Shown here one piece after another: positions 15,477-19,777 of a DNA stretch of 64,000 nucleotides (its first letter is position 1; each line of letters begins with the position of its first letter). The notes beneath the pieces are model-generated. The model saw nothing but the letters and a program-made list of their open reading frames with translations, was not told the origin of the DNA and did no database searches. Source of the DNA: Rhodococcus sp. W8901 (GTDB taxonomy: Bacteria > Actinomycetota > Actinomycetes > Mycobacteriales > Mycobacteriaceae). The stretch covers positions 1,674,001-1,738,000 of the forward strand of contig NZ_CP054690.1 in the NCBI RefSeq assembly GCF_013348805.1, in the 5' to 3' direction. The position numbers were made by a program, and so were the translations under genes.

Positions 15477-15746
15477 TCAGTTGGCCGACGACGCGGCCCG
15501 GGTCTTCCACCACGACCAGGCGGCCGTGACGATGATGGCGCCGGCGAGGGAGCCGATGATGCCGCTGGGGCGCAGTGCGAGTCCGTCACCGGCGAGGAGG
15601 CTGATGACCAGGCCGCCTACCAACGAACCGCCGAGGCCGGCGGCGCAGGCCAGAGCCCAGTCGATTCCGTTCCTGGATCTGCCCATGATGAGCTGGGCGA
15701 CGACGCCGACAAGCAACCCGAACAGGATGATCCCGATGATCAGCAT
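15477..15746 (-). CDS. GlsB/YeaQ/YmgE-family stress membrane protein
   Basis: An 89-residue protein with three hydrophobic helices and the family signatures GLLVGVVAQLIMGR near the start and GLGGSLVGG in the second helix. Members are often called transglycosylase-associated proteins, but their activity is unproven; they are usually stress-induced. The ATG at 15746 is chosen because the family motif begins there; the longer frame upstream has no conserved sequence. Element C sits 15 bp past the stop. Confidence 0.85.
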   Translation of the reverse strand: MLIIGIILFGLLVGVVAQLIMGRSRNGIDWALACAAGLGGSLVGGLVISLLAGDGLALRPSGIIGSLAGAIIVTAAWSWWKTRAASSAN

Positions 15747-15907
15747 GGCGGGAGTATAGGCAGCCATATCCGGCGGATTCTCTGTTTTGTCGCAAAGACA
15801 CGGTCTCCCGATGGCAACAATCGCGGCGGGTATCGAACTGGAGTGATTCAAACTCTTGAACCGCCTGCACAGGCGGGGGCCGGCCGTCGGTGACCGCCCG
15901 GGAGCCG

Positions 15908-15936
15908 TTGACGACCGCAGCGGTGGGGCACAGGAT
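15908..15936 (+). promoter_or_regulatory. Predicted promoter of the cysteine-leader/ssu transcript
   Basis: TTGACG at 15908-15913, a 17-bp spacer and CAGGAT at 15931-15936. Transcription would start about 7 bp later, at or beside the leader ATG at 15944, giving a leaderless mRNA. Confidence 0.5.
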
Positions 15937-15943
15937 TCGCGGC

Positions 15944-16027
15944 ATGACATTCAGCGTCGACACCCGGGCACACCGGCACGCCGTTCCGGCCTGCTGCGTG
16001 GCCGCCCCCTGTCCGCGCTCCTGTTGA
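15944..16027 (+). CDS. Cysteine-rich leader peptide upstream of the sulfonate operon
   Basis: A 27-codon reading frame beginning MTFSVDTRAHRHAV and ending PACCVAAPCPRSC before TGA, with four cysteines, including an adjacent pair and one as the last codon. A promoter is placed so that transcription starts at the ATG. The sulfonate-import gene begins 109 bp after the stop. Leaderless short frames rich in cysteine codons upstream of sulfur genes act as cysteine-responsive attenuators in mycobacteria; this has the same position and composition. Translation stalling at Cys codons when cysteine is scarce would raise ssu expression (inference). Confidence 0.6.
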   Translation: MTFSVDTRAHRHAVPACCVAAPCPRSC

Positions 16028-16135
16028 TGTCGCCGGCCCTCGGGAACTAGGGGCCGTCACTCTGCTCGCCCGCCGGTCGTCCACGACCGCTCGGGATCGT
16101 CTGTGCACTCCCCACGTACGTATCGGAGGTTTTCC

Positions 16136-17146
16136 ATGCGTCGTTCGACGCGTCTACGCTTCTCCCTGACCGCCGCCGCGGTCATCGCATCCCTCGCTCT
16201 GACCGCCTGCAGCAGTTCCAGTGCCTCGGAACCGTCTGCCACGGCCGGAAACCCGCGGTCCGATGTCACCCTCCGGATCGGTGACCAGGTCAAGAGCACG
16301 CAGTCGCTCCTCGAGGCGGCCGGCGAGCTGGACGGCCTCGACTACGGCATCGAGTGGTCCACGTTCGAGGCGGGACCGCCGCTACTGGAAGCGCTGGGCG
16401 CCAACAAGATCGACGCCGGTGGCACGGGCGACGTGCCGCCGGTGTTCGCCCAGGCCACCGGGAATTCCGGCCGTATCGTCGCGGTGCAAGCGCGGACCGG
16501 CGCCAACGACTTCCTGCTGGTGCCCGCGAACTCGACCGCGTCGTCCATCGCCGACCTGAAGGGCAAGAAGATCGCGGTCACGCAGGGCTCGAGCTCGCAC
16601 GGCCTCGTCCTCGGCCTGCTCGATCAGGCGAACCTGCCGGTATCGGACTTTCAGTTCCAGTTCCTCAGCCCTGCAGATGCATTGAGCGCGTTCACCTCCG
16701 GCCAGGTCGACGCATGGGCGGTGTGGAACCCCTACGCGACCATCGGCACGAACACCGCCGGCGCCGAGGTGATCGCCGACGGCAGTGAGGTCACAACCGG
16801 CCAGTCCTACTTCTCGGCCGCGTCGGAGGCCTTGGCGGACCCGGCGAAGTCGGCGGCGCTGGCCGACTTCTTCCAGCGGTTGTCCCGCGCCCAGGTGTGG
16901 GCCGACGCGCACCCGGAGGCGTGGGTGCCGATCTTCGCGAAGCTGACCAAGCTCCCGCAGGACGTTGCCGCGGCGTCGTTCGACACGTCGAAGGGCTCCT
17001 ACGTTCCGATCGACGACCAGCGCATCGCGAAGCAGCAGAAGCTGATCGACCTGTTCGCCTCGGCGGGACTGCTGAAGCAGGCTCCCGTCGCCGGTGAGTA
17101 CTTCGACGCCCGGTTCAACCCGCAGATCGAGGAGGGCAGGAAATGA
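16136..17146 (+). CDS. ssuA: Aliphatic sulfonate ABC transporter, substrate-binding lipoprotein
   Basis: A 336-residue periplasmic-type binding protein with a lipobox (LALTAC at the end of the signal peptide). IDAGGTGDVPPVFAQATG, GKKIAVTQGSSSHGLVLGLL and VDAWAVWNPYA are the conserved ligand-cleft segments of SsuA/TauA/NrtA proteins. The ATG at 16136 has GGAGG 6 bp upstream and places the lipobox correctly. It is first of four overlapping genes that together import alkanesulfonates and release sulfite. Confidence 0.9.
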   Translation: MRRSTRLRFSLTAAAVIASLALTACSSSSASEPSATAGNPRSDVTLRIGDQVKSTQSLLEAAGELDGLDYGIEWSTFEAGPPLLEALGANKIDAGGTGDVPPVFAQATGNSGRIVAVQARTGANDFLLVPANSTASSIADLKGKKIAVTQGSSSHGLVLGLLDQANLPVSDFQFQFLSPADALSAFTSGQVDAWAVWNPYATIGTNTAGAEVIADGSEVTTGQSYFSAASEALADPAKSAALADFFQRLSRAQVWADAHPEAWVPIFAKLTKLPQDVAAASFDTSKGSYVPIDDQRIAKQQKLIDLFASAGLLKQAPVAGEYFDARFNPQIEEGRK

Positions 17147-17976
17147 CCGCGGTCCTGACGAAGAATGTCGTGACCGTCGCCGCAGCGGATACGGCCGCGC
17201 CGACGCGCCGACGCCGTTCGTGGACGCCGCTGCTGCGACTGATCTCCCCGCTGGTACTGCTGGTGCTGTGGCAGGTGCTCAGCAGCGCCGGAGTGGTGTC
17301 GGACAAGACGATTGCCTCGCCGGCGCAGGTGATCTCGGCGGCCGCGGAACTGTGGTCGGACGGCAGCCTGGAGGACGCACTCGCCGTGTCGGTGCAGCGG
17401 GTGCTCCTCGGTGTCGTGCTCGGGGTTGCGCTCGCCGTCGTGCTCGGCGTGCTCGCCGGGTTCTCCCGGATCGTCGAACTCGCCATCGATCCGCCCATCC
17501 AGATGCTGCGGACGGTGCCGTTCCTCGGGCTGATCCCGCTGTTCATCATCTGGTTCGGGATCGGCGAGGAGCCCAAGGTGCTCCTGGTGGCGCTCGGGGT
17601 GATGTTCCCGCTGTATCTCAACCTGTTCGCCGGCATCCGGAGCATCGACGGCAAGCTGATCGAGGCCGCGGAGACGCTGGGGCTCAGCAGGTTCCAGCTC
17701 GCGGTCCATGTGGTTCTGCCCGGGTCACTGCCGCAGGCGCTCACCGGGCTGCGGCTGTCCCTCGGCGTCGCGTGGCTGGCGCTGATCGTCGCCGAACAGA
17801 TCAACGCGGACGCCGGGCTCGGGTATCTCGTCAACAACGCCCGCATCTACTTCCGCATCGACATCGTCATCTTCGGCCTGCTCGTGTACGCGTTCCTCGG
17901 TCTCGCAACCGACGCGATCGTGCGGGCCCTCGAAGGGAGGCTCCTGACATGGCGCAAGACGTACCAGGGGGCGTGA
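17143..17976 (+). CDS. ssuC: Aliphatic sulfonate ABC transporter permease
   Basis: A 277-residue membrane permease with about six helices and the EAA loop (EAAETLGLSRFQLAVHVVLP) that docks the ATPase. QMLRTVPFLGLIPLFIIWFG is typical of the SsuC/TauC/NrtB group. It overlaps the ssuA stop by ATGA and is overlapped at its end by ssuB, so translation is probably coupled. Confidence 0.92.
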   Translation: MTAVLTKNVVTVAAADTAAPTRRRRSWTPLLRLISPLVLLVLWQVLSSAGVVSDKTIASPAQVISAAAELWSDGSLEDALAVSVQRVLLGVVLGVALAVVLGVLAGFSRIVELAIDPPIQMLRTVPFLGLIPLFIIWFGIGEEPKVLLVALGVMFPLYLNLFAGIRSIDGKLIEAAETLGLSRFQLAVHVVLPGSLPQALTGLRLSLGVAWLALIVAEQINADAGLGYLVNNARIYFRIDIVIFGLLVYAFLGLATDAIVRALEGRLLTWRKTYQGA

Positions 17977-18683
17977 GCGACGCCGTCGTCACCGCCCGCG
18001 GCGTGCGACGCATTTTCGGCTCCGACGTCGTCCTCGACGGCATCGACCTGACCCTGCGCCGCGGCGAGATCGTCGCGCTCGTAGGACGCAGCGGCTCGGG
18101 CAAGTCGACGCTGCTGAGGACCGTCGCCGGGCTCGACCTCGGACACGACGGCAGCATCGACGTCGACGGTTCGGTGGCCGTCGCGTTCCAGGAGCCGCGG
18201 TTGCTTCCGTGGAAACGGGTGCACCGCAACGTCTCGCTCGGACTGCCGGGTGCCGACGGCAGGCAGCGCGCGGTCGATGCCCTCGCGGAGGTGAACCTCG
18301 CGCACCGTGTCGACGCGTGGCCGCTGACGCTCTCCGGCGGCGAGGCCCAGCGGGTGTCGTTGGCTCGGGCCCTCGTCCGCGAGCCCGAGCTGCTGCTCCT
18401 CGACGAACCGTTCGGTGCGCTGGACGCGCTGACCCGAATCACCGCCTACGAGTTACTGATCCGGTTGTGGAAGCGGCGCGGCTTCGCGGTCCTGCTCGTC
18501 ACCCACGACGTGGAGGAGGCGGTGCTGCTCGCGGACCGGGTGCTCGTCCTCGACGGCGGCCGGATCGCCCACGACGTCGCGGTCTCGGCGCCCCGCCCTC
18601 GGCTGCGTGCCGACCCCGACGTGGTCGGCCTGCGCAGCACAGTTCTCACTCATCTCGGCGTTCTCGAAGGGATTCCCGCATGA
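17949..18683 (+). CDS. ssuB: Aliphatic sulfonate ABC transporter ATPase
   Basis: A 244-residue ABC ATPase: Walker A GRSGSGKST, Q-loop FQEPRLLPWK (the SsuB/TauB-type signature), LSGGEAQRVSLARAL, Walker B LLLLDEPFGALD and the switch His in VTHDVEEAVLLADR. The start lies 28 bp inside ssuC, and its stop overlaps the ssuD start (ATGA). Confidence 0.93.
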   Translation: MAQDVPGGVSDAVVTARGVRRIFGSDVVLDGIDLTLRRGEIVALVGRSGSGKSTLLRTVAGLDLGHDGSIDVDGSVAVAFQEPRLLPWKRVHRNVSLGLPGADGRQRAVDALAEVNLAHRVDAWPLTLSGGEAQRVSLARALVREPELLLLDEPFGALDALTRITAYELLIRLWKRRGFAVLLVTHDVEEAVLLADRVLVLDGGRIAHDVAVSAPRPRLRADPDVVGLRSTVLTHLGVLEGIPA

Positions 18684-19777
18684 CTCTGCATTTCCATTGG
18701 TACCTGCCCACCTCCGGGGACGGGCGGGAGGTGATCGGCGCGCTCGACCCGCAGGAGGCCGCGGGGCGCGCGTCTGCGTTTCGTCCGCCGTCGCTCGACT
18801 ACCTGTCCCTGGTCGCCAGGACTGCGGAGCAGTTGGGTTTCGAAGCGGTGCTCACGCCGACCGGCACGTGGTGCTCTGATGCGTGGATCACGACCGCGGC
18901 GCTCATCCGGGAGACCCGCACGCTCAAGTTCCTCGTCGCGTTCCGGCCCGGGTTGATCACCCCGACGCTGGCCGCGCAGCAGGCCGCGGCGTTCCAGCAG
19001 TTGTCCGGCGGTCGGTTGCTGCTCAACATCGTCACGGGCGGTGACGCGGAGGAGCAGCGCCGGTTCGGCGACTTCCTCACCAAGGCGGAGCGCTACCAGC
19101 GGACGGGGGAGTTCCTCGAGATCGTCCGCGGTGCGTGGAGTGGGACGCCGTTCGACTTCGCGGGTACCCACTACACAGTCGAGGGTGCGGCGGCACTCCC
19201 CACGCCGTCGCCGGCGCCGGGGATCTTCTTCGGTGGGGCCAGCGAGCCTGCCCTGGACGTCGCCGCCCGGCACGTCGACACCTACCTCACCTGGACCGAG
19301 CCGCCTGCGAGGGTGGGCGCCCTGATCGACGACGTCCGCCGCCGCGCCGCGCTGCACGGACGGACCCTGAGCTTCGGGATCCGCGCGCACGTGATCGCCC
19401 GCGACACCTCGGAGGAGGCGTGGGCCGAAGCACACAAGCTGGTCGAGCGAATGAATCCCGCGCAGATCGAGCTGGCACGGAACCGCCTGGCGCAGAGCGA
19501 GTCCGAAGGCCAACGACGTCAGCTCGGCCTGAGTGCCGATCTGCGCAACCTCGAGGTGTACCCGGGGCTGTGGGCCGGGTACGGGCTGGTCCGCGGCGGC
19601 GCCGGAACCGCTCTCGTCGGCAGCCACGCGGAGGTGGCGTCGCTGATCCAGGAGTACGCGGCGGTGGGCGTCGAGCACTTCGTGCTGTCCGGTCAGCCGC
19701 ACATCGAGGAGGCGTACTGGTTCGGTGAGGGGGTGCGTCCGATCCTGTCGCGGCAGGGGGTGCTGCAGGTCGCGTGA
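18680..19777 (+). CDS. ssuD: FMNH2-dependent alkanesulfonate monooxygenase
   Basis: A 365-residue bacterial-luciferase-like TIM-barrel enzyme that cleaves alkanesulfonates to aldehyde and sulfite using FMNH2 and O2. Recognised by FHWYLPTSGDGR at the start, LVAFRPGLITPTLAAQQAAAFQQ, RLLLNIVTGGDAEEQRRFGD, and YPGLWAGYGLVRGGAGTALVG. No flavin reductase (ssuE) is seen in the operon, so reduced flavin must come from elsewhere. Last gene of the operon; a hairpin follows. Confidence 0.93.
   Translation: MTLHFHWYLPTSGDGREVIGALDPQEAAGRASAFRPPSLDYLSLVARTAEQLGFEAVLTPTGTWCSDAWITTAALIRETRTLKFLVAFRPGLITPTLAAQQAAAFQQLSGGRLLLNIVTGGDAEEQRRFGDFLTKAERYQRTGEFLEIVRGAWSGTPFDFAGTHYTVEGAAALPTPSPAPGIFFGGASEPALDVAARHVDTYLTWTEPPARVGALIDDVRRRAALHGRTLSFGIRAHVIARDTSEEAWAEAHKLVERMNPAQIELARNRLAQSESEGQRRQLGLSADLRNLEVYPGLWAGYGLVRGGAGTALVGSHAEVASLIQEYAAVGVEHFVLSGQPHIEEAYWFGEGVRPILSRQGVLQVA

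Follow-up and report, generated by a model that had tools for sequence, protein, structure and literature searches.

Polycysteine leaderless short ORFs of mycobacteria were reportedly described by Canestrari et al. 2020 (Mol Microbiol 114:93). Cysteine-rich leaders and the attenuation of mycobacterial cysteine genes are treated in the available excerpts of four further papers (PMC4633059, PMC9094748, PMC9031893, PMC13236596). According to these excerpts, Cys-rich leaderless leaders are already known (PMC4633059), and translation attenuation is the mode reported for mycobacterial cysteine genes (PMC13236596, PMC9031893). For Rhodococcus, the excerpted part of a proteome study (PMC8557817) describes ABC transporters for sulfonates and similar compounds as strongly enriched, or as unique to the culture, with dibenzothiophene in place of sulfate. 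It presents the genome as having no homologues of the known global sulfur regulators, CysB, Cbl, CmbR and McbR among them. Among the matches listed by our literature searches, and as far as the excerpts of these texts go, there was no such leader at a Rhodococcus-type ssu operon.

Here we describe a short Cys-rich frame that stands directly before the ssuACBD operon in a genome belonging to Prescottella (the Rhodococcus equi group). The window, that is, the whole 64-kb stretch of DNA that was analysed, corresponds to G000:C1:1674001-1738000 of a 5.71-Mb one-contig genome (G000), and the coordinates used are those of the window. Its relevant features are as follows.

15843-15861, + strand: upstream block GTGATTCAAAC-N-CTTGAAC, with GTGAT, AA and CTTGAAC invariant in nine of nine genus loci
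15908-15913, + strand: -35-like hexamer TTGACG, with CGTTGAC invariant in nine of nine genus loci
15931-15936, + strand: -10-like hexamer CAGGAT, separated from the -35 by a 17-nt spacer and followed by the ATG 7 nt downstream
15944-16027, + strand: leader frame MTFSVDTRAHRHAVPACCVAAPCPRSC, ATG at 15944, 27 codons plus TGA at 16025-16027, from direct reading and comparison
15992-15997, + strand: tandem Cys codons 17-18 (TGC TGC), Cys in nine and eight of nine genus loci
16010-16012, + strand: Cys codon 23 (TGT), Cys in nine of nine genus loci
16022-16024, + strand: Cys codon 27 (TGT), the last sense codon, Cys in eight of nine genus loci
16125-16129, + strand: Shine-Dalgarno GGAGG of ssuA, invariant in nine of nine genus loci
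16136-17146, + strand: ssuA, aliphatic sulfonate ABC transporter substrate-binding lipoprotein (TIGR01728, 206.4 bits, cut-off 163.5)
17143-17976, + strand: ssuC, permease (best NCBIfam model SsuC, 222.7 bits, below cut-off 347; PF00528)
17973-18683, + strand: ssuB, ATPase (best model aliphatic sulfonates ATPase, 240 bits, below cut-off 395)
18680-19777, + strand: ssuD, FMNH2-dependent alkanesulfonate monooxygenase (best model 400 bits, below cut-off 510)

Direct reading confirmed what the initial annotation had seen here, namely a 27-codon frame with four Cys codons whose ATG lies 7 nt beyond TTGACG-N17-CAGGAT. The frame was also rightly placed upstream of ssuA, but the gap given as 109 bp counts 108 nt from the leader stop to the ssuA start. 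All four Cys codons (17, 18, 23 and 27) fall among the last eleven codons. The stops and starts of ssuA, ssuC, ssuB and ssuD overlap between neighbours; ssuA passes its family cut-off, and the other three genes are named by best models that score below theirs. The leader stands first in an operon of sulfur metabolism, an arrangement kept in all nine genus loci. Rfam at gathering thresholds gave no match in the whole 64-kb window, and a tRNA scan found a single tRNA-Arg, far from the leader. Upstream of the leader lies a divergent 96-aa frame (15477-15767, - strand) with no Pfam model above cut-off.

An ssuA orthologue (E up to 1e-60, 78-100% identity) was found in nine of the 14 genomes of the genus, and these are the nine loci compared. 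In each, a frame that is 27 or 28 codons long opens with ATG 177-199 nt before ssuA. Conservation of the Cys codons in relatives, on which the initial annotation had staked its reading, was indeed observed: the frame is present in all nine orthologous loci, and a search of the ssu upstream regions found the Cys-rich frame, the promoter spacing and the position before ssuA kept in every one. The peptides contain four or five Cys residues each, clustered near the end, and share the C-terminal consensus ACCxCAPCPRSC. Across five columns Cys occupies 42 of 45 cells (nine, eight, eight, nine and eight of nine genomes); at the third column the window has GCC and the other eight genomes have TGT. The only length change inside the frame is a one-codon indel and the stop codon is conserved, while the spacer between the stop and ssuA ranges from 93 to 112 nt. 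A one-base indel between the -10 and the ATG in three genomes makes that distance 6 or 7 nt, so that the nine do not have in common any longer frame that would open at the -10 or upstream of it. A peptide profile of the nine leaders, applied to 401 genomes of the family, where no more than 20 candidates were scored in each, gave full-length matches (51-67 bits) in exactly these nine; the best match beyond them scored 21.2 bits.

Another genome of the genus, G008, has an ssu operon that lacks its 5' part (L301 3991-6863), the promoter, the leader and most of ssuA being gone together. There a match to window positions 15826-15861 runs almost directly into the last 118 residues of ssuA, and ssuB matches in three pieces.

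We think it probable that the frame is a leaderless Cys-sensing leader of ssuACBD that attenuates the operon through its Cys codons. We infer the transcription start, the translation of the frame and its response to cysteine as follows. Judged from the promoter spacing, RNA polymerase would begin on the A of the ATG or no more than one base away, and ribosomes would translate the frame, their speed through Cys codons 17, 18, 23 and 27 reporting the level of charged Cys-tRNA. With ample cysteine, ribosomes would reach the UGA and leave, allowing the 108-nt spacer to fold and leaving ssuA poorly expressed. With cysteine in short supply, ribosomes would stall in the Cys tract, ssu expression would rise and sulfur would be scavenged from sulfonates.

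Leaders of recognised type occur elsewhere in the same genome. A search of G000 with NF042934 gave two leaders over the cut-off (31.1 and 30.8 bits) and a third below it (25.0 bits), which passes the NF042936 cut-off instead (50.8 bits). The leader MESTNTGGQWSRRHVDLCRTSSGMCTR (L173 2546-2629) precedes a gene for a 211-aa product weakly similar to luciferase-like/NtaA-type flavin-dependent monooxygenases; VYANHELMLTRRRAVDLCRLGGCCCPCC, which scores 43.0 bits with NF042933 (cut-off 45), precedes a DUF4395 gene and a rhodanese-type sulfurtransferase; and MTDTGVRLVARRHVDLKRVCSCCCLPCGV precedes a NirA/sulfite-reductase-like gene, which is followed by genes resembling cysH, cysD and cysN, as judged by reading of the frames. 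Each of the three recognised-type leaders has a -10-like hexamer (TAGCGT, TACGCT, CAGAAT) followed, at the same 7-nt distance as at ssu, by a possible start; these starts were picked by eye from several that are in frame. In the search of G000, five weaker NF042934 matches scored 13-17 bits, and one of them is the leader of a second ssuD. This second alkanesulfonate monooxygenase (L258, G000:C1:1002234; L259, L260) has a leader that ends ...WHSWRLYVDLCRVGALRCRS or ...VCTLRCRR, is Shine-Dalgarno-led, scores below the NF042934 cut-off (18.1 bits) and is kept in three of three genomes with that orthologue at 79% identity or more.

The leaderless reading offered by the initial annotation is supported by the invariant TTGAC, by the -10-like hexamer, whose A2, A5 and T6 are invariant in nine of nine loci at a constant, ungapped 17-nt spacing from the -35, and by the equal spacing at the three leaders of the same genome; the start itself is predicted from these elements. 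The reading of CAGGAT as a -10 rests on a looser pattern (A at position 2, T at position 6), which is in use in actinobacteria, together with conservation. CAGGAT agrees with TATAAT at only three of six positions, and a generic scan of 15760-16260 for sigma-70 and terminator consensus found no site at its thresholds. A poor -10 and an empty promoter scan would suit an alternative in which the frame senses cysteine on a leadered transcript, CAGGAT serving as a Shine-Dalgarno sequence (AGGA about 8 nt before the ATG) and the promoter lying further upstream, for instance near the block at 15843-15861. AGGA stands inside the hexamer in seven of the nine genomes, the invariant TTGAAC-containing block lies about 85-100 nt upstream, and in G000 the leader before the second ssuD has a Shine-Dalgarno. 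Yet the other two genomes have CACGAT and CAGTAT, which lack AGGA, while A2, A5, T6 and the TTGAC 17 nt upstream are invariant, and at the three recognised-type leaders exactly 7 nt separate the -10-like hexamer from a possible start. We regard a leadered transcript as unlikely.

A second alternative, which we hold to be slightly less likely still, takes the frame to be incidental: a promoter and an RNA or DNA element would be what is conserved, and a transcription factor acting at 15843-15861 would control ssu. It draws on the absence of overall protein-level constraint on the leader. The ratio pN/pS was 0.92 over the whole frame and 0.955 without the start, the stop and the gapped codon, and 530 of 1000 column shuffles gave a value at or below that observed for the core; by these measures no overall protein-level selection on the peptide was seen in the nine sequences. 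Pairwise differences at codon positions 1, 2 and 3 numbered 171, 247 and 192, which is no coding pattern. A weak codon-position signal has also been reported, in the excerpt at hand, for mycobacterial Cys-rich regulatory frames (eLife 2022, PMC9094748). Without overall constraint on the peptide, the Cys columns, the stop and the frame are what is left to argue for selection on translation. Here the evidence turns against an incidental frame: indels are in-frame only, the stop is conserved and the Cys codons have diverged less than the others (nucleotide divergence 0.104 vs 0.236), a modest result in that 2858 of 100000 random codon sets were as low. Because the conserved Cys codons are identical to the nucleotide, constraint on the RNA and constraint on the codons are inseparable there. 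The substitution pattern as read in the aligned loci is compatible with the Cys codons being the one part of the frame that counts.

Chance frames with four terminal Cys codons at such a spacing are, moreover, rare. A strict rule, which asked for a frame of 15-45 codons with an ATG or GTG start, the end of NANNNT 6-8 nt ahead of it and four or more Cys in the last 14 codons, was applied to both strands of the window and matched once, at the ssu leader itself, and three times if at least three Cys were allowed; 60 loci from relatives outside the genus (1.31 Mb, both strands counted) gave one match.

The upstream block speaks in favour of control by a factor. It lies about 85-100 nt 5' of the leader and is among the best-conserved stretches in all nine loci, and another leader of the genome (G000:C1:735545, the L173 leader) has, 49 nt ahead of its start, a copy of the first 11 bases of the block with one base changed (GTGATTCGAAC). 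The degenerate form of these 11 bases occurs 21 times in the genome, compared with about 22 estimated from equal base frequencies, although the backwards control occurs once; we treat the recurrence as no more than a lead. A CymR/Rrf2-type protein is proposed, in the excerpted text of PMC8557817, as the probable sulfur regulator in Rhodococcus. Judged by its conservation, the block could be a regulator site or some other element; control by a factor would also be compatible with a leader at work beside it.

That the peptide acts not in cis but as a small protein, for instance one that binds thiols or metals, is highly improbable: the spacing CC-x-C-x-x-C-x-x-x-C is kept in six of nine peptides, but the remainder of the peptide drifts freely, its position directly before ssuA is kept in all nine loci, and the scanned peptides have no Pfam or NCBIfam match.

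How, then, would a Cys-sensing leader act on ssuA? Three hairpins were considered between the leader and the gene.

16034-16056, + strand: GC-rich hairpin just 3' of the leader stop, from the MFE fold of the window, with pairing that differs among relatives
16069-16095, + strand: second hairpin, terminator-like with a poor U-tract, -16.2 kcal/mol
16110-16129, + strand: possible anti-Shine-Dalgarno hairpin (CCUCaCG/CGGAGG), from the RNAalifold consensus

Release of the ssuA Shine-Dalgarno is slightly preferred over terminator read-through as the output, since the pairing arm is conserved and translation attenuation is reported for mycobacterial cysteine genes. In the nine loci, 96.3% of cells in the anti-Shine-Dalgarno hairpin are paired, with no two-sided change; in the window one pair (C16112-A16127) is broken. 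The second hairpin was matched in stability by a fraction of 0.016 of 500 shuffles. Its motif CCCGCCGGUC and the CGGG partner are present in seven of the nine genomes and absent in two, and the bases downstream of it are UUUCUC or UUCCUC in six genomes and AUCGUC in the window. Covariation, measured as pair changes, was no better than in shuffles, the second hairpin included; of the 10 pairs in the RNAalifold consensus, one, in another version of that hairpin, had two-sided changes. Nor did the whole leader fold better than its shuffles, of which 72 of 200 did as well (z -0.33).

Modelled ribosome positions on the nine sequences changed the exposure of the Shine-Dalgarno in no consistent direction, the mean unpaired value being 0.096 with no ribosome, 0.074 with a ribosome at the first Cys codon and 0.108 with one at the stop. 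For the window alone, exposure climbed from 0.08 to about 0.3 whichever Cys codon the ribosome occupied, and a ribosome placed on the stop raised it just as much. Similar folding of seven sequences showed no consistent effect of ribosome position on formation of the terminator-like hairpin. A leader-internal partner for the anti-Shine-Dalgarno arm was clearly better than shuffles in one of nine sequences, and was set aside.

Outside the genus, an RRHVDLCR-type leader was found at two of the seven nearest ssuA orthologues (L092-L098, equivalent to L217-L223; 49-62% identity), both in genus g17. The g17 leaders (L097 and L098) score 36.9 bits with NF042934 (cut-off 27) and 25.4 bits, just below; the other five of the seven loci had no recognisable leader. 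At L092 an ATG frame beginning MSCCRVPPSGSAAHPVCTIC (MSCC), read by eye, runs in frame into ssuA without a stop. When 61 of the 92 non-genus genomes with an ssuA match were examined, with one short flank and some flanks ended by contig ends, RRHVDL-type leaders were seen close upstream of the gene in two, both g17, along with one unrelated pattern match. Among 33 more distant ssuA loci, 11 had frames with at least three late Cys codons. Ten of these were, by eye, out-of-frame readings of an upstream ATPase gene; the eleventh (L110) is a TTG-started frame with four Cys codons that overlaps the start of the ssuA orthologue. Conversely, the best 30 class-wide NF042934 loci, a biased sample as the top of a longer list, included none with SsuA, SsuC or SsuD in flanks of about 1.5 kb, one with a weak SsuB-like ATPase and five with NirA.

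The origin of the Prescottella leader is harder to place. At E up to 10, NF042934, NF042933 and NF042936 matched neither the window peptide nor the three ssu peptides scanned from among the other eight, and Pfam and NCBIfam gave none to the scanned ssu leader peptides. Three of the nine genus peptides have the motif ARRH in the position where the NirA-type leader of the window genome also has it, and a common origin of the two leaders is possible. That the ssu leader arose independently or was completely remodelled, rather than descending from the RRHVDLCR family, is a tentative view that we lean against. Were it true, a sulfur-starvation sensor would have arisen again on the sulfonate operon and joined the existing ribosome-read leaders of one genome, and charged Cys-tRNA would tune sulfate reduction, a sulfurtransferase and sulfonate scavenging with no shared transcription factor needed.

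The initial annotation knew of no described case on such an operon. That claim of novelty narrows, since the kind of switch is already known and two ssuA orthologues in another genus of the family, g17, carry a different Cys leader of recognised type. What differs is the ssu operon and a peptide outside the models searched. If our reading holds, sulfonate scavenging would join the processes under Cys-read leaders of the mycobacterial kind. By reading cysteine directly, the ssu leader would give bacteria related to that of the dibenzothiophene study a further layer of control that needs no factor. Nine natural variants with four or five Cys codons each make it an easy test case.

Finally, we compare the ssu leader with known systems. 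Like the mycobacterial polycysteine leaderless ORFs, the ssu frame is short, has late clustered Cys codons, begins 7 nt from a -10-like hexamer, stands directly before a sulfur-acquisition operon and is conserved in relatives, and it would be first in its transcript; unlike them, it is found on ssuACBD and in Prescottella, and instead of forming one run its Cys codons are in part spread out (CC, C, C). With the families NF042934 (cis_reg_atten), NF042933 (leader_Ms5788A) and NF042936 (leader_Ms4527A) it shares late Cys codons, but its peptide has no VDLCR core. The RRHVDLCR-type leader of g17 is likewise a short Cys-containing leader, about 90-115 nt before an orthologous ssuA, but it has only two Cys codons and no confident alignment to the window peptide. 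In the attenuation of M. tuberculosis ilvB1NC, as set out in the excerpt of PMC13236596, an amino-acid-sensing upstream frame is followed by hairpins, as here; that leader is BCAA-rich and its terminated transcript has been mapped, whereas the terminator-like hairpin at ssu has a weak U-tract and a motif missing in two of nine genomes.
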